Source: Desulfotomaculum sp. (GTDB lineage: Bacteria; Bacillota; Desulfotomaculia; Desulfotomaculales; Desulfallaceae). Taken from it: 49,018 bases of DNA. The position numbers were made by a program, and so were the translations under genes. The notes under the pieces are model-generated. The model was not told the DNA's origin, ran no database searches, and saw only the letters and a list, made by a program, of their open reading frames with translations. Shown in pieces: positions 1,136 through 11,614 of the stretch; position 1 is the stretch's first letter; every line of letters begins with the position of its first letter. The DNA is taken from the NCBI GenBank assembly GCA_016841675.1, contig JAENYQ010000017.1, positions 1 to 49,018 on the forward strand, given 5' to 3'.

Positions 1136-1174
1136 ATGCAAAAGGTCAGAAATATCAGACATGGGGGGAAAAGA

Positions 1175-2602
1175 ATGAAAGGTTTGCGGGAGTTTATGGA
1201 TGAAATTGAGAAAAGCGGGGATTTAGTTCGAATTAACAAAGAGGTTGACTGGGACATTGAGGCAGGGGCGATTAGTCGCCGGGTATACGACCAATATGGT
1301 CCTTCCCTTTTCTTTGAGAAGATTAAGGATTACCCGCAAGGACACACCATCCTTAACGGCCCGGTGGGTACCTGGCGGAGGGTGGCAATTGCGATGGGAC
1401 TGGCGCCAGATACGCCGGTACGAGAGATTTATGCTGAATACGAGAAAAGGATAGACAATAGGGTTAAGCCTAACATTGTGGAGCGCCGAGATGCTCCTTG
1501 TAAGGAAAATATTTTCATAGGGGAAGATGCTGACATATACCGGTTACCGGCTCCATTGATTCACGAGGGAGATGGCGGTCGCTATATCGGCACCTGGGAC
1601 ATTGTTGTAACCGGGGATCCAGATACCGGCTGGACAAATTGGGGTATGTATCGCTTTATGGTACATAACAAGAATTTTCTTGCCGGCTGGCCACAAACAA
1701 CAAGCCAGTTCGCAATGATGTTAAACGAAAAGTACGTACCTAAAAACAAGCCCATGCCCGTAGCTTTAGTTATTGGGTCGCATCCCATCGATCACATGAT
1801 GGCTACCGCGCCTTTCAAGCCAGGCGTAAGCGAAGCCGAGGTGGCCGGAGCTGTGCGGGGGGAAGCCGTTGATCTTGTAAAATGCGAGACTTGCGACCTC
1901 ATGGTGCCAGCCAATGCAGAAATAGTGATTGAGGGAGAAATCCCTGTCGACGTCATAGTTCCAGATGGTCCCTTTGGTGAATACCCAGGCTATCGGAGTG
2001 GCACGATGGCTGAAGGTGTGGCTTTCCGCATTAAAGCAATCACACACCGGAACAATCCTATTTTGAGTATGACCGCCCTGGGCGCTCCGGTTGATGACAG
2101 TTCAATTGCCGCCTCACTAACTGCAGCAGTGGGGATGAAAAAGGGACTGCAGAGAAGGGGCATTGATGTAACCGATGTATATGTACCGCCCGAAGGAGTT
2201 ACCCACCTAGTTGTCGTTGGCGTAAAAACTGGCGGCATTGAAGTGACAAAGAAGGTTCTTGACTTTTTCGTCGCACGGCGAGTAATGGTATCCAAGTGTA
2301 TTGTGGTAGACCAGGATGTAGACGTATTTAACATGGGCCAGGTTATTCATGCCTTTGCTACCAAGTGTCACCCGGGACGAAGTATTGTCGTGGAACATTT
2401 CGTTGGAAAGTCCAATGCTCTTACCCCTTGTTATGATGCCGATGAACGGCGTATTCTCAAGGGAGCATTTGCGGCCTTTGATGCTACCTGGCCTTTGGAG
2501 TGGCCAAAGGAAAACATACCGCCAAGAGCAACCTTTGAAGATATATACTCTGAAAAAACTAAAGCAGAAGTAGTTGCCAAGTGGAATGAATACGGTCTTT
2601 AA
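1175..2602 (+). CDS. UbiD-family aromatic acid decarboxylase (copy 1)
   Basis: This 475-residue protein belongs to the UbiD family, cytoplasmic enzymes that use prenylated FMN to remove (or add) a carboxyl group on aromatic or unsaturated acids. The family hallmarks are present: Asn155 and Arg160 in NWGMYR, and Asp264 and Glu269 in DGPFGE, which correspond to the metal-binding Asn and the E(D)-R-E catalytic set. I chose the ATG at 1175 because GGGGGGAA stands just before it; an in-frame ATG at 1136 has only a weak site. It is the first gene of a plus-strand operon with a 96-aa unknown and a CoA ligase. By analogy with anaerobic isophthalate and phthalate degradation it could act on a free aryl acid or an aryl-CoA. 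The substrate cannot be read from the sequence. Confidence 0.9.
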   Translation: MKGLREFMDEIEKSGDLVRINKEVDWDIEAGAISRRVYDQYGPSLFFEKIKDYPQGHTILNGPVGTWRRVAIAMGLAPDTPVREIYAEYEKRIDNRVKPNIVERRDAPCKENIFIGEDADIYRLPAPLIHEGDGGRYIGTWDIVVTGDPDTGWTNWGMYRFMVHNKNFLAGWPQTTSQFAMMLNEKYVPKNKPMPVALVIGSHPIDHMMATAPFKPGVSEAEVAGAVRGEAVDLVKCETCDLMVPANAEIVIEGEIPVDVIVPDGPFGEYPGYRSGTMAEGVAFRIKAITHRNNPILSMTALGAPVDDSSIAASLTAAVGMKKGLQRRGIDVTDVYVPPEGVTHLVVVGVKTGGIEVTKKVLDFFVARRVMVSKCIVVDQDVDVFNMGQVIHAFATKCHPGRSIVVEHFVGKSNALTPCYDADERRILKGAFAAFDATWPLEWPKENIPPRATFEDIYSEKTKAEVVAKWNEYGL

Positions 2603-2640
2603 TTGTTTATTTTATAATCGAATTAAGGAGGCGAAGATAA

Positions 2641-2931
2641 ATGTCTAAAGAGTATCTTACCTATGTCCGCCAATATGCAGACCTTCGAGACGGTGTGCGC
2701 AACCTGTTTATCAAAGATCTGACACCTGGCCCACGAAAATATGATACAAAACAGGTACAGGCCATGATATCCAATTCGCCCGCAAATTTACCGGAATCAG
2801 ACGTTCTCTGGGTGCGTTCGGAAATGGGTGTGCTTGACCCGAACCCGTGGGCTATTAAAATTCTGGAAGACCTGCCCGATTACGTGGAGGGTCGTCCATA
2901 TACCGATATCTTTGTTGCCTTGAAATGGTGA
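2641..2931 (+). CDS. 96-aa protein of unknown function between UbiD and CoA ligase
   Basis: I do not recognise this family. The gene has a strong ribosome binding site (AAGGAGG, 9 bases before the ATG), starts 38 bases after the UbiD gene and ends 29 bases before the chosen start of the ligase, so it is surely translated as part of the operon. The protein has no cysteine, no signal peptide and no membrane segment. Several UbiD-type enzymes (phenylphosphate carboxylase, hydroxyarylic acid decarboxylases) have a small extra subunit, so an accessory subunit of the UbiD upstream is a reasonable guess from position only. Confidence 0.8.
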   Translation: MSKEYLTYVRQYADLRDGVRNLFIKDLTPGPRKYDTKQVQAMISNSPANLPESDVLWVRSEMGVLDPNPWAIKILEDLPDYVEGRPYTDIFVALKW

Positions 2932-2960
2932 TATCTTATCCCAAGAAAGGTGACAAGGAA

Positions 2961-4271
2961 ATGTTTTATGATGCCAAAACAGAAACGGCTTCCAGTGAGC
3001 AGCTTGAGAACCTTCAGTGGCAAAAAATGATAGGCATGTTGAAGAAGGTATATGAGAGTAATCTTTTTTACCGGCGCAAGTTTAATGAACATGGTGTAAC
3101 CCCTGATGACATAAACGATTTGGGTGACATTATAAAACTACCTTTTACGTCTAAACAGGATTTCCAAAGGGATCAGGATAACAACCCTGTTTTCGGAACA
3201 AATTTAACTGAGGCATTTGAAAATTATGTCCAATTTCACCAAACCACCGGTACTACAGGTAAGCCCCTGAGATGGCTAGACACTAAAGAAAGCTGGGCTT
3301 GGCGGGCACGTTGCCAAGCACATGCCCTGACAGCAGCAGGTATTACAAACAAGGATATATTGTTGCTACCATTTAACTTTGGTCCCTATACAGCTTTTTG
3401 GGGGATTTATGAAGCGGCCCAGCACTTGGATATATTGACAATCCCCACCGGAGGGTGGACTACCGAGCAGCGTATTCATTGTCTAATAGAAAATAAAGCC
3501 ACGTTGATTGCCGGTACCCCTACCTATATGTTGCGCATTGCTGAGGCAGCCCAGGAAATTGGTGTCGATCTTGCATCTTCTTACGTAAGGGCGCTTATTC
3601 TGGCCGGGGAACCAGGGGCAATGATCCCGGCAGTGAGGGAAAAACTCGAAAAAGCTTGGGGGGCCCGGGTATTTGAATACCCAGGCCTAACTGAAACTGG
3701 CACCTACGCTTTTATGTGTAGTCATAACAATCAGGCCCTGCATATTATCGAGAGCGAGTTTATCGTAGAAATACTAGATCCGCAGACCGGACGTGGGGTC
3801 CCGGACGGGGGGGTTGGTGAACTGGTGCTTACAAACCTTGGCCGCACTTGCAGCCCTGCCATCCGTTACCGTACCGGCGACTTGGTAAAGAGAGTTCGAA
3901 AGTCCTGCGGTTGTGGGCGAACCTTAAGCCAATTAGACGGTGGGGTATTGGGGCGGAAAGATGAAATGCTCATCGTCCGTGGAGTAAATATTTTTCCTAG
4001 AGCCGTGGGAAACATTGTAGAAGAGTTCCTTGAATTCGGCAATGAATACCAGATTATTGCTTATCGCCGGGATGGAACGGATGACTTGGAAGTACAAGTT
4101 GAAATTAATCCTTCGTCAGATAACATGGACCAAATTATTGCTGCCGAAATAAAAAGTCGTCTCAATTTAAGGATAAAAATAGATTCCGTGCCAAAAGGGA
4201 CGTTTGTACGTTCGCACTATAAAGGGAAAAGATTTATTGATAAAAGAAAGCAAGCTTGTAACACAGATTAG
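2961..4271 (+). CDS. PaaK-like aryl-CoA ligase (AMP-forming)
   Basis: The 436-residue protein matches the phenylacetate-CoA ligase group of adenylate-forming enzymes in length and motifs: the phosphate-binding TTGTTGKP at 95-102, YPGLTETG at about 240-247, YRTGDL at 303-308 and the C-terminal hinge GRKDEML at 331-337. A CGCG motif at 316-319 is also usual in this group. It should activate an aromatic carboxylic acid to its CoA thioester with ATP. The ATG at 2961 is preferred because AAAGGTG lies 8 bases before it and the resulting length fits the family; an upstream ATG at 2925 overlaps the previous stop codon and has no site. Pairing with a UbiD recalls isophthalate:CoA ligase plus isophthalyl-CoA decarboxylase. 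The substrate is an inference. Confidence 0.9.
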   Translation: MFYDAKTETASSEQLENLQWQKMIGMLKKVYESNLFYRRKFNEHGVTPDDINDLGDIIKLPFTSKQDFQRDQDNNPVFGTNLTEAFENYVQFHQTTGTTGKPLRWLDTKESWAWRARCQAHALTAAGITNKDILLLPFNFGPYTAFWGIYEAAQHLDILTIPTGGWTTEQRIHCLIENKATLIAGTPTYMLRIAEAAQEIGVDLASSYVRALILAGEPGAMIPAVREKLEKAWGARVFEYPGLTETGTYAFMCSHNNQALHIIESEFIVEILDPQTGRGVPDGGVGELVLTNLGRTCSPAIRYRTGDLVKRVRKSCGCGRTLSQLDGGVLGRKDEMLIVRGVNIFPRAVGNIVEEFLEFGNEYQIIAYRRDGTDDLEVQVEINPSSDNMDQIIAAEIKSRLNLRIKIDSVPKGTFVRSHYKGKRFIDKRKQACNTD

Positions 4272-4369: not shown

Positions 4370-4957
4370 TCACAAATCTTTGTTGAACCGTCTTTTCTCC
4401 GGCACACTTTCCCAGCGTTGAAACATCTGATGTTCAATATCAAACTGATCCAGTATTTTACCGACGGTTTGATTGATTATATCATCAATGCTAGTGGGTC
4501 GGTGGTAAAAGGCGGGCATGGGCGGCAGAATAATCCCCCCGACCTCGGACAATGCAACCATCATCCTGAGATGGCCAAGGTGCAAGGGGGTTTCCCGTGC
4601 CATCAGCACTAGCTTTCTTTTTTCTTTAAGAGTCACGTCGGCGGCCCGCACCAGTAGATTATCGTTATATGAATTCGCTATCCCGGACAGGCTTTTAATT
4701 GAGCAAGGCGCTATGATCATTCCATCATGCTTAAATGAACCGCTGGCTACCGACGCCCCTACGTCTGCGTTATCATAAACGAAGTCTGCCAGTGACTCCA
4801 CCTCGGGCAGCTTGTAATTTGTTTCAAGATTAATTGTTTTTTGAGCGCTTTTGCTAATGACCAGGTGTGTTTCCACTTGGCATTGTCGCAGTGTTTCCAG
4901 GATCCTGATGCCATATACCGCGCCGCTTGCACCCGATATTCCGATGACCAGCTTCAT
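4370..4957 (-). CDS. ubiX: Flavin prenyltransferase UbiX
   Basis: The 195-residue protein makes prenylated FMN from FMN and dimethylallyl phosphate, the cofactor that UbiD decarboxylases need. It shows the UbiX flavodoxin-like features: GISGASGA at 6-13, the APCSIKSLSGIA segment at 83-94 and MARETPL at 119-125. A GGGGG sequence stands before the ATG. It is the only UbiX in the window and lies downstream of a UbiD gene and a small zinc-ribbon gene, the same three components found in BsdBCD/VdcBCD-type hydroxyarylic acid decarboxylases. It may serve all three UbiD proteins here. Confidence 0.93.
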   Translation of the reverse strand: MKLVIGISGASGAVYGIRILETLRQCQVETHLVISKSAQKTINLETNYKLPEVESLADFVYDNADVGASVASGSFKHDGMIIAPCSIKSLSGIANSYNDNLLVRAADVTLKEKRKLVLMARETPLHLGHLRMMVALSEVGGIILPPMPAFYHRPTSIDDIINQTVGKILDQFDIEHQMFQRWESVPEKRRFNKDL

Positions 4958-5141: not shown

Positions 5142-5297
5142 TTAGCCTACCCGGTCATCAATAAACGGGCTTTCTTCTACCCGGAAAGTGCGCTGACAAT
5201 ACGGGCACATTAACTCCAGGTTGGCATAGCGCAGTTCATAATCGCAATAATACCTGCCGTGACATTCCGGGCATTCCACCCAAAAAATTCTTTCCAT
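5142..5297 (-). CDS. 51-aa zinc-ribbon protein, possible small subunit of a UbiD decarboxylase
   Basis: This short gene encodes a 51-residue protein with two CPxC knuckles (CPEC at 9-12 and CPYC at 31-34), the pattern of a zinc ribbon. A strong GGAGGTG site lies 7 bases before the ATG. It begins 18 bases after the stop of the ubiD gene at 5316-6698 and is followed by ubiX. Small Cys-rich D proteins of 60-80 residues accompany BsdC/VdcC-type decarboxylases, so position, size and cysteines suggest the same role. That is analogy: I cannot confirm homology by eye. Confidence 0.8.
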   Translation of the reverse strand: MERIFWVECPECHGRYYCDYELRYANLELMCPYCQRTFRVEESPFIDDRVG

Positions 5298-5315: not shown

Positions 5316-6698
5316 TTAATCAAGCCATTGTTCTGGTTTTACGGAATTGAGCACCTGTTCCGGCACTTTAAACAGCGTCGGGAATGGCCTGTCCAAAGGC
5401 CTGGTAGCATCAATGACCACCTTATTGTGACCCATGGCGGTAGTGAACATGGTATACAAATTACGGATATAAGTAATATCACGATCAGGATTAACCATAG
5501 TTACCATTGCCCAAATGACTTCCTTTTCATTAAAGACGTCTATGTCATCATCCACTACAACGACAACCTGGTTTGTAGTTGATTCATTCAAAGCAATTAA
5601 CCCAGCCTGTTTGCCCTGCCCCTCCTTTGTTTTTTTAATTGAGATATAGCACAAAAGGCGGCCGACGCCGGAATGAGGATTGTGAACAGCAACTATGCCC
5701 CCTACCTTGGATTGAAGGGTATTATAAACACTACCTTCTTTGGGGATTGTCCCCAGGTTCCAATGGCCCTCATGACCGGAAAAAACATCCTGCATAATGG
5801 CATTTTGGCGACGCGTAATAGCTTTCACCTGCATGGCTTGGCGAATACATTGGGCCTGATAATGACGGGTAACCTCACCGAAGGGGTCCACTACCTCTCT
5901 AACACCGGGCAGAATCTCACCTTCAATAATTATCTCAGCGTCAGCCGGTACAAGAAAATCTTCACCCCACGTTACCGAAGGCGCTAAACGTAAAGGCTCA
6001 CCCAAAAAACCACCCACGGCTTCATAATCGTCCCGTTCAAAACTGGTTAATGCAAGCGCACCCAGAAAAAATGCCGGGTGATGCCCGATAATATTGATAA
6101 TTGGAGCAGGTTTATTCATCTCCTTATAACGGTTCACAATGCGCTCCAAGTGTGGGGAGTGAATGGAAACTCCCATATAATCGGGTTTTCCTTTATAAAA
6201 AGTTTTTATAAAGCTAATATCATAAACTCCGGTATCAGGGTCGCGCATACAACAGGTCATCGTGATTACCGGCCCCAGGTCCATTTCATAATGACGGACG
6301 ATAGGTAAAACCCCTACATCAACTTGTTTACCGGACACCACTACCTCTTGAACGGGCGCTGCACCGTCCATGCGCACTGGAGGGATGGATATATTTTCCC
6401 TGCGCGCATATTCAAGGCTTAACGGCATTTTGCACTCATCTTGCCTCATATCCAGGGCCAATGCACATCTTTCCCGGCGGCCAAAAACATTGCTGACCAG
6501 CTTAATACCGGCCGGATCGCCGTTAACGCTTTCGGGGTCTTTAAATAAAACCATAGGGAATTTACCTTGCCTGGTTAGGTTCTCCAACAAGGCGGTTGCT
6601 TCAAAATGAGCCGGCCTAACCCGCCTGGAAACATGAGCTATTTCATCAGGATATTCCTTCTCCAATAACGATATATAACTGGTTAGATCCTTGGACAT
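5316..6698 (-). CDS. UbiD-family protein with altered active site (copy 2)
   Basis: The 460-residue protein is UbiD-like along its length, including DPDTG at 153-157 and PFGE at 272-275. Three positions expected to be catalytic or metal-binding differ by eye: Asp160 stands where Asn is normal, Lys165 where the catalytic Arg is normal, and Val270 where the first acid of the (E/D)GPFGE motif is normal. Glu275 is kept. It may be a divergent decarboxylase, a carboxylase-type subunit or a partner of another UbiD. The ATG at 6698 is chosen because AAGGAGGA precedes it at a good distance, whereas the ATG two codons upstream touches that site. It is probably co-transcribed with the TRAP genes upstream and the zinc-ribbon and ubiX genes downstream. 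Confidence 0.88.
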   Translation of the reverse strand: MSKDLTSYISLLEKEYPDEIAHVSRRVRPAHFEATALLENLTRQGKFPMVLFKDPESVNGDPAGIKLVSNVFGRRERCALALDMRQDECKMPLSLEYARRENISIPPVRMDGAAPVQEVVVSGKQVDVGVLPIVRHYEMDLGPVITMTCCMRDPDTGVYDISFIKTFYKGKPDYMGVSIHSPHLERIVNRYKEMNKPAPIINIIGHHPAFFLGALALTSFERDDYEAVGGFLGEPLRLAPSVTWGEDFLVPADAEIIIEGEILPGVREVVDPFGEVTRHYQAQCIRQAMQVKAITRRQNAIMQDVFSGHEGHWNLGTIPKEGSVYNTLQSKVGGIVAVHNPHSGVGRLLCYISIKKTKEGQGKQAGLIALNESTTNQVVVVVDDDIDVFNEKEVIWAMVTMVNPDRDITYIRNLYTMFTTAMGHNKVVIDATRPLDRPFPTLFKVPEQVLNSVKPEQWLD

Positions 6699-6769: not shown

Positions 6770-8695
6770 TTAGCTACTTATTTTAATATACTCTTTTTGC
6801 TTAATTGCAAAACCTCGAAAATGTAACCCCAAGAGCAATATTATCAACCCCAACCCTATAATCCGACTTGACCACCCGGGGACAAGTAAAATGATCCCGG
6901 CAATGATAAAGCCTACCCGCTCAAACCAACCTAAATCTCGTCGCAAATAGCCTTCCACACCGATAGCAATTACAGCAACACCCAAAACACCGTCAAATAG
7001 AGCTAATGCTATACTACTTGTGGACCCCATGAGAGCTAATCCAGGCTTGAAGATAAAGATAAAAGGTACTACATAAGCGGCGATACCCAATTTCATGGCC
7101 TGCCAGGCCGTAGGCATCATCGGTGAACGGGCAATTGAGGCCGCCGCATAGGCAGCAAGACATACCGGCGGGGTAAGGAATGAAAGAGTTCCATAGTAGA
7201 AAACAAACATGTGTGCCAATAAAGCGGGTACGCCCATCTGCACCATTGCGGGTGCCACCAAAACAGCAAGCAAAAGATAAGAAGCTGTCACCGGCATCCC
7301 CATACCTAGAATAATACTAGCAAAGGCAGTTAATAAAGCTAACAACAAAAGATTACCTCCACCTAAATCCGTAAGCACCCGGGATAAAGAAAGGCCCACA
7401 CCGGTGTAGGTTATTACCCCAACTACCAGTCCCGCCGCAGCACAAATAACCGTTACTTCCAACATACCCTGAGTGGTTTCCTCAAGAAGAGTTAATGTCT
7501 TTTTCAATTTATGTCTAACGTCTCTTCGACATAATACTACCAGAAACAAGGATGCTAACGAATACAAGGCAGCTACGGACTCTCGAAGAAACAATGCAAA
7601 GAGGCAAAAGACCAGCACCACCACAGGTATCACATAAATCCAACCTACTTTGAATGTTTTCTTCAAAGAAGGGATTTCTTCCTTTGGCATTCCTTGCAGA
7701 CCTATCTTCGCAGCTCTCAAGTCCACTTGTATAAATATGCTTAGATAATAAAGCAATGCTGGAACCAGCGCGGCAATGACAACCACGGCATAGGGAATCC
7801 CTAAAAACTGAGCCATAATGAAAGCAGCAGCACCCATAATTGGTGGCATGATGCAACCACCCGTTGAGGAAACAGCTTCCACTCCGGCGGCAAAGTGAGC
7901 AGGGTATCCTACACGCTTCATCATAGGAATAGTTAAAACTCCTACTGCCGCTACGTTACCCACTGCACTTCCGGATAGAGTACCCATCAAGGAACTAGCT
8001 ACAATGGCTATTTTAGCAGCACCACCCCGGTAGCGTCCCATTAGAGCCTGGGCAATATCGATCAAGAAAGACGCTCCTCCGGTGCCAAACAAAAAACGTC
8101 CAAATAGAATAAAGCTAAAAACAATCACAGCCGCTGTTTGCAGTGCAATGCCATAAAGGAATTCAGAACCCAGGTAAAGTTGGCTGATCAAACGTGGCCA
8201 GGAAATTTCTTTGCCTGCCAAAATGCCTGGCAAAAGATATCCAAAGCGCCCATACAAAATGAAAACGACGACGATGATTACCAGAGGCCAACCGGCAAGG
8301 CGTCGCGTAGCTTCCAGAATGGATAAAATCGCCACTGACCCCAAAATAACTTTTGCTGGGGAGTAAAAACCCAGTGTTGTTAATAATTGGGGATAGTATA
8401 ACAATACGTATAGCCCTACAATCATACTTGCACAAGCGCATAAAATATCGTACCAAGGGACACTATTTTTACTGGCCTTGTTGACTGCGGGAACGCTTAT
8501 GAAAACGTATGCCAATATCAAGCCCAGAAATAATCCTAGATATTGCTGTACAAAAAGGGATATTCCCGCCAGGTATAGCGGTAAATCAAGGATGAAAATT
8601 AGCGCGGCAAGCGGCACAATTAAACCCAGGACCAACTGTGTATATCGCGCAACCCCCGCTAATTGCCGAAACCGTCCCTGTGATTCCTTTTCCAA
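6770..8695 (-). CDS. TRAP transporter fused permease (4TM/12TM)
   Basis: A 641-residue, strongly hydrophobic protein with about 16 predicted membrane segments, as expected for the fused small and large membrane subunits of TAXI-type TRAP transporters. These use an ion gradient to import organic acids delivered by an extracytoplasmic binding protein. Long glycine- and alanine-rich segments such as GTLSGSAVGNVAAVG and STGGCIMPPIMGAAA are typical of the large subunit. The start is a TTG at 8693-8695 with GGGAGGTG 6 bases before it. The binding protein gene lies 54 bases upstream. Its place among decarboxylase genes suggests an aromatic or dicarboxylic acid as cargo, which is inference. Confidence 0.92.
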   Translation of the reverse strand: MEKESQGRFRQLAGVARYTQLVLGLIVPLAALIFILDLPLYLAGISLFVQQYLGLFLGLILAYVFISVPAVNKASKNSVPWYDILCACASMIVGLYVLLYYPQLLTTLGFYSPAKVILGSVAILSILEATRRLAGWPLVIIVVVFILYGRFGYLLPGILAGKEISWPRLISQLYLGSEFLYGIALQTAAVIVFSFILFGRFLFGTGGASFLIDIAQALMGRYRGGAAKIAIVASSLMGTLSGSAVGNVAAVGVLTIPMMKRVGYPAHFAAGVEAVSSTGGCIMPPIMGAAAFIMAQFLGIPYAVVVIAALVPALLYYLSIFIQVDLRAAKIGLQGMPKEEIPSLKKTFKVGWIYVIPVVVLVFCLFALFLRESVAALYSLASLFLVVLCRRDVRHKLKKTLTLLEETTQGMLEVTVICAAAGLVVGVITYTGVGLSLSRVLTDLGGGNLLLLALLTAFASIILGMGMPVTASYLLLAVLVAPAMVQMGVPALLAHMFVFYYGTLSFLTPPVCLAAYAAASIARSPMMPTAWQAMKLGIAAYVVPFIFIFKPGLALMGSTSSIALALFDGVLGVAVIAIGVEGYLRRDLGWFERVGFIIAGIILLVPGWSSRIIGLGLIILLLGLHFRGFAIKQKEYIKISS

Positions 8696-8749: not shown

Positions 8750-9832
8750 CTATTGTTTCTCTGCAAGGAGCTCAACCTGGCGCTGGTCCATCTCTGGTGT
8801 CCAAACCCCTTTTTCCTTATAAAACTTGATCGCACCGGGATGATAAGGGATTGTATTCAAAGTAGAAACAAAACCCTCAGTAGCCCATTCTTCTAACTTA
8901 ATGTGTATGGTGCCTAGTTCCTGATTGTTGTCCCAAAGGATTTTCACAATATCATAAGCCATTTGTTCGGGTAAATCATCTCGCCCGGCAAGGTAAAAAC
9001 TATAACTCATCAGGTTAGTAGGCTCTTGAACACCAATGTTAGCCGGCCCGGGCTGTACCTCAACAACTTTAGCATAGTATTTTTCTTGCAAACGCTTGAC
9101 CGCATCGGGCGAGGAATCAAACGACAGGAATCTGGCCCCCTTTTTAGCGTCCAATTCCGAAATTACCCCCATGCCGATACTACCGGAACCGGCGGCATCA
9201 GCCCGACCTTCGGTAATGGCCTGAATGCCTGCATTTACGCTAGGCATGGATAAAACTTTAACATCGTTACGGGTCAATCCGAAATTAGCCAGGGCTGCTT
9301 CCGCCTGCGCGGTAATCCCAGGACTCCCAGTATAGTCAACTATGAATCTTTTTCCTTTTAAATCGTTCCCAGTTTTAATATTGGAATCACCGGATACCAC
9401 CACACCAGTTAATGACGGCGTACCGGCGGTCAACAACATACAGGGGAAGCCTTTACCCTGTGATATTTGTTCATAAACACTTTTACCCAATCGGCCCATT
9501 TGAGCATCCCAGTCGTTTAGTACCCCTAAATCCATTTCTTTTGTTTCCAGCATGGGCAACCATTCTGTGGGTCCGGTGGTTGCCACTACTTTAACTTCTG
9601 CGGACAGGTGCTTACTCAACACAGTCCCTATCCCGGATCCCATGGCATTAACTAGAGAGCCGGCACCATGTGTCCCCAGAGCTAAAGTTTTTAGCTCCTG
9701 CTCTTCTTGACCAGAAACATCTTGTTTTGAACTTTGTTGATCACCTTGAGTGGTATTATTGGAGCTACAGGCTGATGCCAAAAGGATAAATAATATAGCA
9801 GTTAATGTAAATAAGTAACTAAATTTTTTCAT
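8750..9832 (-). CDS. TAXI-family TRAP transporter solute-binding lipoprotein
   Basis: The 360-residue protein starts with a lipoprotein signal (MKKFSYLF then LLASAC, with the lipid-modified Cys near residue 22) and a low-complexity linker, followed by a TAXI-type binding domain beginning TLALGTHGAGS. It should be anchored outside the membrane and deliver substrate to the permease encoded next. The ATG at 9832 has GGAGGG 8 bases before it; an in-frame TTG at 9850 lies inside that site and is not a real start. TAXI proteins bind varied organic acids, so the ligand is unknown. Confidence 0.92.
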   Translation of the reverse strand: MKKFSYLFTLTAILFILLASACSSNNTTQGDQQSSKQDVSGQEEQELKTLALGTHGAGSLVNAMGSGIGTVLSKHLSAEVKVVATTGPTEWLPMLETKEMDLGVLNDWDAQMGRLGKSVYEQISQGKGFPCMLLTAGTPSLTGVVVSGDSNIKTGNDLKGKRFIVDYTGSPGITAQAEAALANFGLTRNDVKVLSMPSVNAGIQAITEGRADAAGSGSIGMGVISELDAKKGARFLSFDSSPDAVKRLQEKYYAKVVEVQPGPANIGVQEPTNLMSYSFYLAGRDDLPEQMAYDIVKILWDNNQELGTIHIKLEEWATEGFVSTLNTIPYHPGAIKFYKEKGVWTPEMDQRQVELLAEKQ

Positions 9833-10018
9833 TTGATTAACCCTCCTCAATAATTGTACGAAAAAGTGATTTATTCACCTGCAGAGAGTACACTTCACCA
9901 AATGGATAGACTACTTCTTTTCCCCCTATCGACACAGAGGTGCGAGGGCGCGAGGACGGTCCACGGGACGCACCGCCAATACCGCCCTTCCCCACATTCT
10001 ATACTTTACATGCCTAAC

Positions 10019-10132: not shown

Positions 10133-11614
10133 TCAATCGATATTTTCGTTTTCAAAAGATTTAAGTAATGGCGGCTCACCATCCAACCCCAAATCTGACC
10201 ATCGCTGGCTTAGGCGGTCGTACATACTACGGGTAATCTGCGACCGGCGGGAAAAAACATTAAGATATTTATGCTCCCGGCAGGCGTTGATCAGCGCTTT
10301 GGAGCCGTACGGGCGCTCTTCAGGGGGATTTTGGGTCGGATCCAAGTACGTTGACCAGGTGTTACGCAGAATATCGATATCCTCGATTGGGTTACAGCGG
10401 GTAGACATGGCCCAGATAACTTCATCCATATTAGTCGGGTCAACATCCTCTTCGACGGTGATAATCCATTTAGTATAATAAGCGGCGGCCGGGCACTGGG
10501 CGGCCAGGGCCAGTACTTGCTGAGCATGGCCGGCGTACCGTTGTTCCATGGAGATTACTACCATGCCAAACCCGCCGGCGGCAGCTGGGTGAGAGTAAAC
10601 TCCCTTAATACCAGGGATTCCCAATCTATCTAAGTCATCCCAAATCTTGGCTGAACGAATAATGCTGAAAAAGAAGTTCTGTTCACAAGAAGGATAATCG
10701 GCCATTAAAGCACTCGTTAATATAGGCTGATGGCGATGGTGAACACATTTGACATCTATGACCGGGGTATCAGCTTCCGGTCGCCCGTAATACCCCTGGA
10801 ACTCGCCGAAAGGTCCTTCCAAACGATTGTTATTGGGGTAAGCTATGCCTTCAATAATTATTTCCGCGTGAGCCGGGATCGGCAATTCGGTGACTTCCCC
10901 TTTAATTACTTCAATGCCCTTACCTTTAATGCCACCGGCAAATTCATATTCAGAAATGTTTTTAGGAAAGCCTTGCGAGCCTACCAAAAAGAGCAGGGGA
11001 TCGACCCCATAAACGGCGGCTACTTCACAAGGTTTATCCATTTTCCACCAGGCTTCCCGGTGCAGTTTGGCGTCCTTGCCCGGGGATACATAAAACCCAA
11101 CCTCATTTTTCCCCTGTACCATCTGGCGGTAAGTACCGAGGTTGACACTGCCGGTTTCAGGATCCCTAGTTATGATAACATCGGCGGTGCCCAAATAACG
11201 GCCACCGTCCCGGGGCCACATTTTGGGCACCGGAAACTCCAGAACGTCGATATCATTACCAAAATGCAGGTTTTCATTGATCGGCGCGGATTTAGGATCA
11301 ACATATTCCGGGGGAATCCTTTTTTTCAGTTTTTCACGGGTGGCCTGGATCATCTCCGTTACGGTAAGCTCGGTTGGAAGTCCCAGCGCCAGGGCAATCC
11401 GTTTTTTCCCGGTCCCCAGCATGTTAAACAACACCCGGTAATCCCGTGAATAGCCTTTAATGTTTTCAAATAATAGCGCGGGTGAACCCATTTGCTTGCC
11501 GACCATATAGGTCAGGGCTCCCATCTCCAAATTCCAATCCACTTCAGCAGTTATATGTTTTAACTCTCCAATTTCCTCTACCTGAGCCAACCATTCTCTA
11601 AGACTGTTATACAT
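10133..11614 (-). CDS. UbiD-family aromatic acid decarboxylase (copy 3)
   Basis: A 493-residue UbiD protein with an intact set of key residues by eye: Asn158 and Arg163 in NLGTYR, and Glu266 and Glu271 in EGPFGE. It should decarboxylate (or carboxylate) an aromatic or aryl-CoA substrate with prenylated FMN. The ATG at 11614 is preceded by AAAGGAG. It is more like copy 1 than copy 2 in its N-terminal segment (SLREWL...EVDW). It lies between the regulator and transporter genes. A 34-bp palindromic repeat stands 50 bases before its start and may form part of the leader RNA. Confidence 0.92.
   Translation of the reverse strand: MYNSLREWLAQVEEIGELKHITAEVDWNLEMGALTYMVGKQMGSPALLFENIKGYSRDYRVLFNMLGTGKKRIALALGLPTELTVTEMIQATREKLKKRIPPEYVDPKSAPINENLHFGNDIDVLEFPVPKMWPRDGGRYLGTADVIITRDPETGSVNLGTYRQMVQGKNEVGFYVSPGKDAKLHREAWWKMDKPCEVAAVYGVDPLLFLVGSQGFPKNISEYEFAGGIKGKGIEVIKGEVTELPIPAHAEIIIEGIAYPNNNRLEGPFGEFQGYYGRPEADTPVIDVKCVHHRHQPILTSALMADYPSCEQNFFFSIIRSAKIWDDLDRLGIPGIKGVYSHPAAAGGFGMVVISMEQRYAGHAQQVLALAAQCPAAAYYTKWIITVEEDVDPTNMDEVIWAMSTRCNPIEDIDILRNTWSTYLDPTQNPPEERPYGSKALINACREHKYLNVFSRRSQITRSMYDRLSQRWSDLGLDGEPPLLKSFENENID

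Follow-up and report, generated by a model that had tools for sequence, protein, structure and literature searches.

A conserved Bacillota lineage of UbiD-family proteins with two residues of the canonical Glu-Arg-Glu network replaced

The UbiD family has an E(D)-R-E network that is described as conserved across the family (PMC8988006) and as required for catalysis in Fdc1 (PMC5818171). The residues named as key to Fdc1 catalysis are E282, R173, E277 and L439, of which R173 and L439 are described as essential (PMC8379154); the R173K mutant showed no activity that could be detected, styrene H/D exchange included, and an acid was needed at position 277 (PMC5818171). Some members act with a partner, and the activity of VdcC requires VdcD, a zinc-ribbon protein of the CXXC/CXXC type that contacts the loops in which the E-R-E residues lie (PMC8379154). 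Several solved enzymes serve for comparison here. The 2,5-furandicarboxylate decarboxylase HmfF of Pelotomaculum thermopropionicum (6h6v, 6h6x) retains N147, R152, E254, E259 and the leucine of the LDP motif, and VdcC of the vanillic acid decarboxylase VdcCD (7ae4, 7ae5) retains both the E(D)-R-E motif and L425. The 3,4-dihydroxybenzoate decarboxylase AroY (5o3m, 5ny5) belongs to an active group with Asp in place of the Asn (position 160 below), but retains the Arg and the acids at the other positions.

The stretch of DNA analysed here (the window) is 49,018 nucleotides of a Desulfotomaculum sp. genome, and it encodes three UbiD proteins, copies 1 to 3 (Table 1). Copy 2 begins at an ATG at 6698 with an AAGGAGG ribosome-binding site ahead of it, and its stop is at 5316 on the minus strand. 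The three domain profiles PF20695, PF01977 and PF20696 (the UbiD N, middle or Rift-related, and C domains) all score above cut-off, identifying a full-length UbiD-family protein, and the AlphaFold model (pLDDT 82.5) confirms the UbiD fold, with an unreliable part at residues 272–282 in the VDPFGE loop region (pLDDT below 50). The top structural matches from Foldseek and VIA-align are UbiD enzymes. The best solved match by both sequence (185 bits) and fold is HmfF, whose fold aligns with a VIA-align Z of 44.6 and an rmsd of 2.3 at 34% identity over 399 residues, and which has a similar length and domain order and a basic residue after PFGE (GEYPR in HmfF, GEVTR in copy 2). Copy 2 nevertheless lies outside the canonical UbiD (de)carboxylase group. 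It scores 209.7 bits against the NCBIfam UbiD decarboxylase model TIGR00148, under the curated cut-off of 244.85 that copies 1 and 3 pass, 202 bits against the VdcC model NF041204 (cut-off 650), and 86 and 82 bits against the phenylphosphate carboxylase models TIGR02723 and TIGR02724 (cut-offs 565 and 469). PpcA and PpcB share the UbiD fold with copy 2, and it is copies 1 and 3 that score best against their models.

Table 1. Features of the window in and around the copy 2 gene row
Feature	Coordinates	Strand	Evidence or detail
UbiD copy 1 (PpcA-like), canonical N/R/D/E, divergent unit	1136..2602	+	TIGR02723, 403 bits, under cut-off
ubiX, flavin prenyltransferase, last gene of row	4370..4957	-	NF004685, 277 bits (cut-off 188)
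Zinc-ribbon protein, 51 aa (CPxC-x18-CPxC)	5142..5297	-	18 bases downstream of copy 2
UbiD copy 2, 460 aa, variant with D160, K165, V270, D271, E275, F418 (DKVE)	5316..6698	-	Three Pfam UbiD domains; orthologues
Codon F418, site of conserved Leu (Fdc1 L439, ShVdcC L425)	5445..5447	-
Codons V270-E275 (VDPFGE), where (E/D)GPFGE is expected	5874..5891	-	V270, 5891-5889; D271, 5888-5886; E275, 5876-5874
Codons D160-K165 (DISFIK), where NxxxxR is expected	6204..6221	-	D160, 6221-6219; K165, 6206-6204
TRAP transporter fused permease	6770..8695	-	TIGR02123, 644 bits
TAXI-family TRAP solute-binding protein	8750..9850	-	TIGR02122, 157 bits (cut-off 84)
UbiD copy 3 (PpcB-like), canonical N/R/E/E, possibly first gene of copy 2 row	10133..11614	-	TIGR02724, 307 bits, under cut-off

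The original prediction, made by eye, was that copy 2 has Asp at 160, Lys at 165 and Val at 270 while keeping Glu275, and that copies 1 and 3 have the usual residues. Alignment with HmfF (6h6x), in which N147, R152, E254 and E259 fall opposite D160, K165, V270 and E275, upholds all three substitutions, and the register is the same in profile alignments with phenazine-1-carboxylate decarboxylase, VdcC and E. coli UbiD; copies 1 and 3 have N, R, an acid and E. Two further changes emerge, with Asp replacing the glycine at 271 and Phe418 the leucine of the LDP motif (a register fixed by profile alignment with VdcC and HmfF and by a further alignment). One of the four key Fdc1 residues is therefore retained (Glu275), the equivalents of R173, E277 and L439 all being replaced. 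At the positions of the E277-R173-E282 network, copy 2 and all of its orthologues have V270, K165 and E275, and the conserved oligomerisation-domain leucine is F418 in copy 2. A realignment that restores Arg or Glu was considered and rejected, as the register is locked by the invariant PFGE and by the DPDTG ahead of position 160. The charged candidates near the VDPFGE motif are D271 and R/K278, and the latter was rejected as a relocated catalytic Arg since HmfF too has Arg at that position.

How unusual these residues are can be seen from 91 other UbiDs drawn from the same genomes and their relatives. Position 165 is Arg in all 91, and 270 is Glu or Asp in 90, the exception (L008) being misaligned by a local insertion. 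Position 418 is Phe in all seven members of the copy 2 clade with data, and Leu, Met or Ile in 87 of the 89 others with a residue there. Asp160 is also found in AroY-type decarboxylases (L020, L022, L023 and 5o3m), an active group; Lys165 is shared by none of the 91. Because Asp occurs at 160 in the AroY type and His in phthaloyl-CoA decarboxylase, D160 alone is not unusual, and the unusual changes are K165, V270/D271 and F418. Phthaloyl-CoA decarboxylase was itself rejected as an explanation, as it retains R and an E. We take the metal ligand positions of copy 2 to be D160, H183 and D224 (N, H and E in Fdc1), which are conservative changes; D224 replaces the Glu that we presume to be the Fdc1 metal ligand E233, and a canonical relative, L045, also has Asp at 224. 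Binding of the prFMN cofactor by copy 2 is plausible. No paper on UbiDs whose catalytic residues are not conserved turned up in a literature search, an absence that proves little.

Copy 2 orthologues were found in seven other Bacillota species at 61–71% identity after merging of duplicates. Three came from a phylum-wide sample of 398 genomes and four more from 98 genomes of the class of G168, a sample that includes two of the first three; the contigs were scanned by exact peptide words, such that members below about 60% identity can be missed. A genome-wide search gave six loci at 61–63% identity in other Bacillota-type genomes. One orthologue contig is labelled Desulfovibrio, and the same contig is present in a Bacillota genome of another collection. 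D160, K165, V270, D271 and E275 are common to all eight species. Sequencing error or decay of copy 2 was rejected as an explanation, since these residues recur in eight independent genomes, each with an open frame.

In a maximum likelihood tree of 51 proteins the eight DKVE proteins form one clade with support of 100/100, requiring one change of label. The clade is nested inside canonical UbiDs on a long branch of 0.55 changes per column, and the canonical L045/L075 are its probable sister (93/87, under the starred threshold). Values of dN/dS are 0.03–0.12 for those close pairs in which synonymous change is unsaturated; the protein, altered motif included, is under purifying selection. Sites that are invariant in the clade and differ from a conserved canonical state are 144, 160, 165, 180, 224, 248, 270, 271, 281, 282, 284, 333, 401 and 418, five of which lie in catalytic motifs (160, 165, 270, 271 and 418). 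The newly fixed charged or His residues include D160, D271, H180 and R/K278, and the unchanged invariant sites include H183, H206, H207, P272, G274 and E275. Invariance by itself is only moderate evidence, because 45% of sites are invariant within the clade and the probability that all five named sites would be so by chance is about 0.02; the stronger argument is that positions catalytic throughout the family are fixed to other residues. The clade has a UbiD fold with lineage-wide loss of the canonical network. A natural lineage of this kind, which lacks the network yet keeps its importer, its zinc ribbon and its selection, would allow direct tests of which network residues are needed for prFMN chemistry and of whether the UbiD scaffold has any activity beyond (de)carboxylation.

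The gene row containing copy 2 reads, on the minus strand from 11614 to 4370, UbiD copy 3, TAXI receptor, TRAP permease, copy 2, zinc ribbon and ubiX, with an IclR-type regulator upstream. The gene layout and profile match bear out the predicted linkage of copy 2 to the zinc-ribbon gene and ubiX. The zinc-ribbon gene directly adjoins copy 2 in all seven testable species, the window counted (the G545 contig ends within the UbiD gene and was left out), and its product is 54–63% identical in the other six. It is modelled as a beta-rich protein (pLDDT 86), and its cysteines C9-C12 and C31-C34 are invariant in six aligned sequences, forming two CXXC knuckles about 20 residues apart in a protein encoded beside a UbiD, as expected of the VdcD type. 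No match of the 51-residue protein to VdcD was found by profile, and no VdcD chain is among the structural matches listed; we use VdcD as a working analogy and not as a claim of homology. An HmfF-like gene in a relative (L014/L082), unlike copy 2, has no adjoining zinc-ribbon gene.

The transporter genes are present at six of the eight loci (the window, G317, G363, G168, G540 and G545), where they diverge along with the UbiD; those adjoining the five orthologues are 52–61% identical for the TRAP permease and 47–55% for the TAXI protein. G555 and G557 (L041 and L042) have fumarate-reductase-like genes instead, with genes for a flavoprotein and for iron-sulfur proteins following the zinc ribbon directly (L041, 1787–2885; L042, 1892–4254), and the L041 copy appears to be split into pieces. 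Local regulators vary among the loci and are of the IclR, LysR and sigma-54 types, as expected for a substrate-induced module. The window and G168 have an intact local ubiX. None lies in the stretches read of G540 and G317, and that of G363 (L073, 5285–6118) is a remnant matching only about the last 51 residues. Each of these genomes has at least one UbiX gene all the same.

Canonical UbiDs with the same gene set are also found in Bacillota (L077, L078 and L081), at 35–41% identity to copy 2 and within the same larger clade, but with an N/R/E/E active site; we found no description of their function in the literature. L077 and L078 are compact units of UbiD, zinc ribbon, TRAP and UbiX genes, and because they share this layout, copy 2 most likely descends from an importer-plus-decarboxylase module in which the module was kept and the active site changed. 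At L080 (1878–16501) and L081 (590–10917) a canonical UbiD, a zinc ribbon and TAXI-TRAP genes lie by genes for a molybdenum enzyme resembling xanthine dehydrogenase and for amidohydrolase-like and ferredoxin-like proteins, and these clusters may serve pyridine-carboxylate breakdown. L076 (7161–10469) has two different UbiDs in tandem with a zinc-ribbon gene for each.

Together the residues, their conservation and the gene partners make it likely that copy 2 still works as an enzyme, by an altered mechanism, and is not a dead copy. Our favoured explanation, held with a little more belief than doubt, is that it depends on prFMN and acts on an imported carboxylate through a rebuilt ionic network, in a small, strictly conserved subfamily whose active site was rebuilt a single time and then retained. 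The steps that we infer, from cofactor binding and complex formation to substrate contacts and catalysis, would be as follows. The neighbouring TAXI-TRAP importer would bring in the substrate, an organic acid, and its TRAP type makes a carboxylic acid probable; UbiX would supply prFMN. The zinc-ribbon protein would hold the active-site loops of copy 2, as VdcD does for VdcC. Lys165 with Asp160 and Asp271 near Glu275 would replace the Glu-Arg-Glu network, Phe418 would take the place of the gating Leu, and the substrate carboxylate would be held by Lys165 or by some other basic residue, Arg/Lys278 for example, with Glu275 remaining the proton donor or acceptor. The reaction would most likely be the reversible decarboxylation of an unusual substrate. 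The loss or breakage of the local ubiX at some orthologous loci counts against this explanation.

By the Fdc1 rule, under which R173K is inactive and an acid is needed at 277, copy 2 should not decarboxylate, and its lineage would therefore have either a different network (K165 with D160 and D271) or chemistry other than decarboxylation. The original prediction had raised different chemistry for copy 2; the loss of conserved residues behind it proves to be lineage-wide (eight species, one origin, dN/dS of 0.03–0.12 in computable close pairs), and the different chemistry itself is plausible and strengthened. We hold tentatively, at somewhat short of an even chance, that copy 2 is a conserved prFMN enzyme without the Glu-Arg-Glu network, possibly of non-decarboxylating chemistry, in which a VdcD-like zinc ribbon steadies a different ionic network. 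Copy 2 might bind prFMN and perform no decarboxylation at all but another reaction of the prFMN adduct, for instance hydration or isomerisation of an unsaturated acid or proton exchange on it. The equivalents of R173, E277 and L439 are lost together although each is needed for Fdc1 decarboxylation (PMC5818171, PMC8379154), the proton-transfer residue Glu275 is retained in all orthologues, and the importer and the zinc-ribbon partner have been kept, which speaks for a role in metabolism; no gene of the neighbourhood names such a reaction, however, and we consider this rather unlikely. To our knowledge no prFMN enzyme of the UbiD fold has other chemistry as its natural reaction, which also weighs against it.

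The original prediction also raised copy 2 as a non-catalytic partner of another UbiD, and this fares less well. In such a role it would form mixed hexamers with a catalytic UbiD, copy 3 or copy 1 for example, or regulate it. Phenylphosphate carboxylase, with its two UbiD-like subunits, provides a precedent, and copy 3 lies on the same strand three genes upstream of copy 2. In L041 the gene immediately before copy 2 is a copy-3-like UbiD, and L085 has UbiDs at a distance of about 6 kb. However, copy 3 orthologues (at least 55% identity) are present in only two of the seven other DKVE genomes, being missing from G363, G168, G555, G557 and G545, which disfavours an obligate partner. The stretches examined around copy 2 in G317, G363 and G168 contain no second UbiD, the canonical parents L077 and L078 stand alone with the same zinc-ribbon, TRAP and UbiX layout, and copy 2 is itself the copy carrying the zinc-ribbon gene. 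We therefore regard this arrangement as improbable, while a looser partnership is possible, as all of these genomes contain other UbiDs.

It is very doubtful that copy 2 is a UbiD-derived chaperone or maturase handing prFMN to the other UbiDs of its genome: there are many of these (8 in the window's genome) and dedicated prFMN helpers exist in LpdD (PMC10865409) and PhdC (PMC13040415), but the folds of both differ from UbiD and an importer beside copy 2 at most loci would be unexpected. There is also very little chance that copy 2 is an ordinary decarboxylase to which the Fdc1 mutant results do not transfer, with Lys fully replacing Arg and Asp271 or Glu275 serving as the first acid; the Lys is a conservative change, D271 puts an acid one position along and AroY enzymes have Asp at 160, but no other UbiD of the 91 has Lys at 165, Fdc1 R173K is inactive (PMC5818171), and the changes arose together on one long branch (0.55 changes per column).

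Two other sets of UbiD genes in this genome are of note. On the plus strand of the window (1136–4271), copy 1, a 96-residue protein weakly similar to phenylphosphate carboxylase gamma (TIGR02725, 25 bits) and a PaaK-like CoA ligase lie in a row, which looks like an operon for aromatic (de)carboxylation and CoA activation. Elsewhere in the genome, on contig C104, the UbiD at L008 (1204–2697) is closely related to phthaloyl-CoA decarboxylase (8oz5, 302 bits) and lies beside a gene for an amidohydrolase-like protein.
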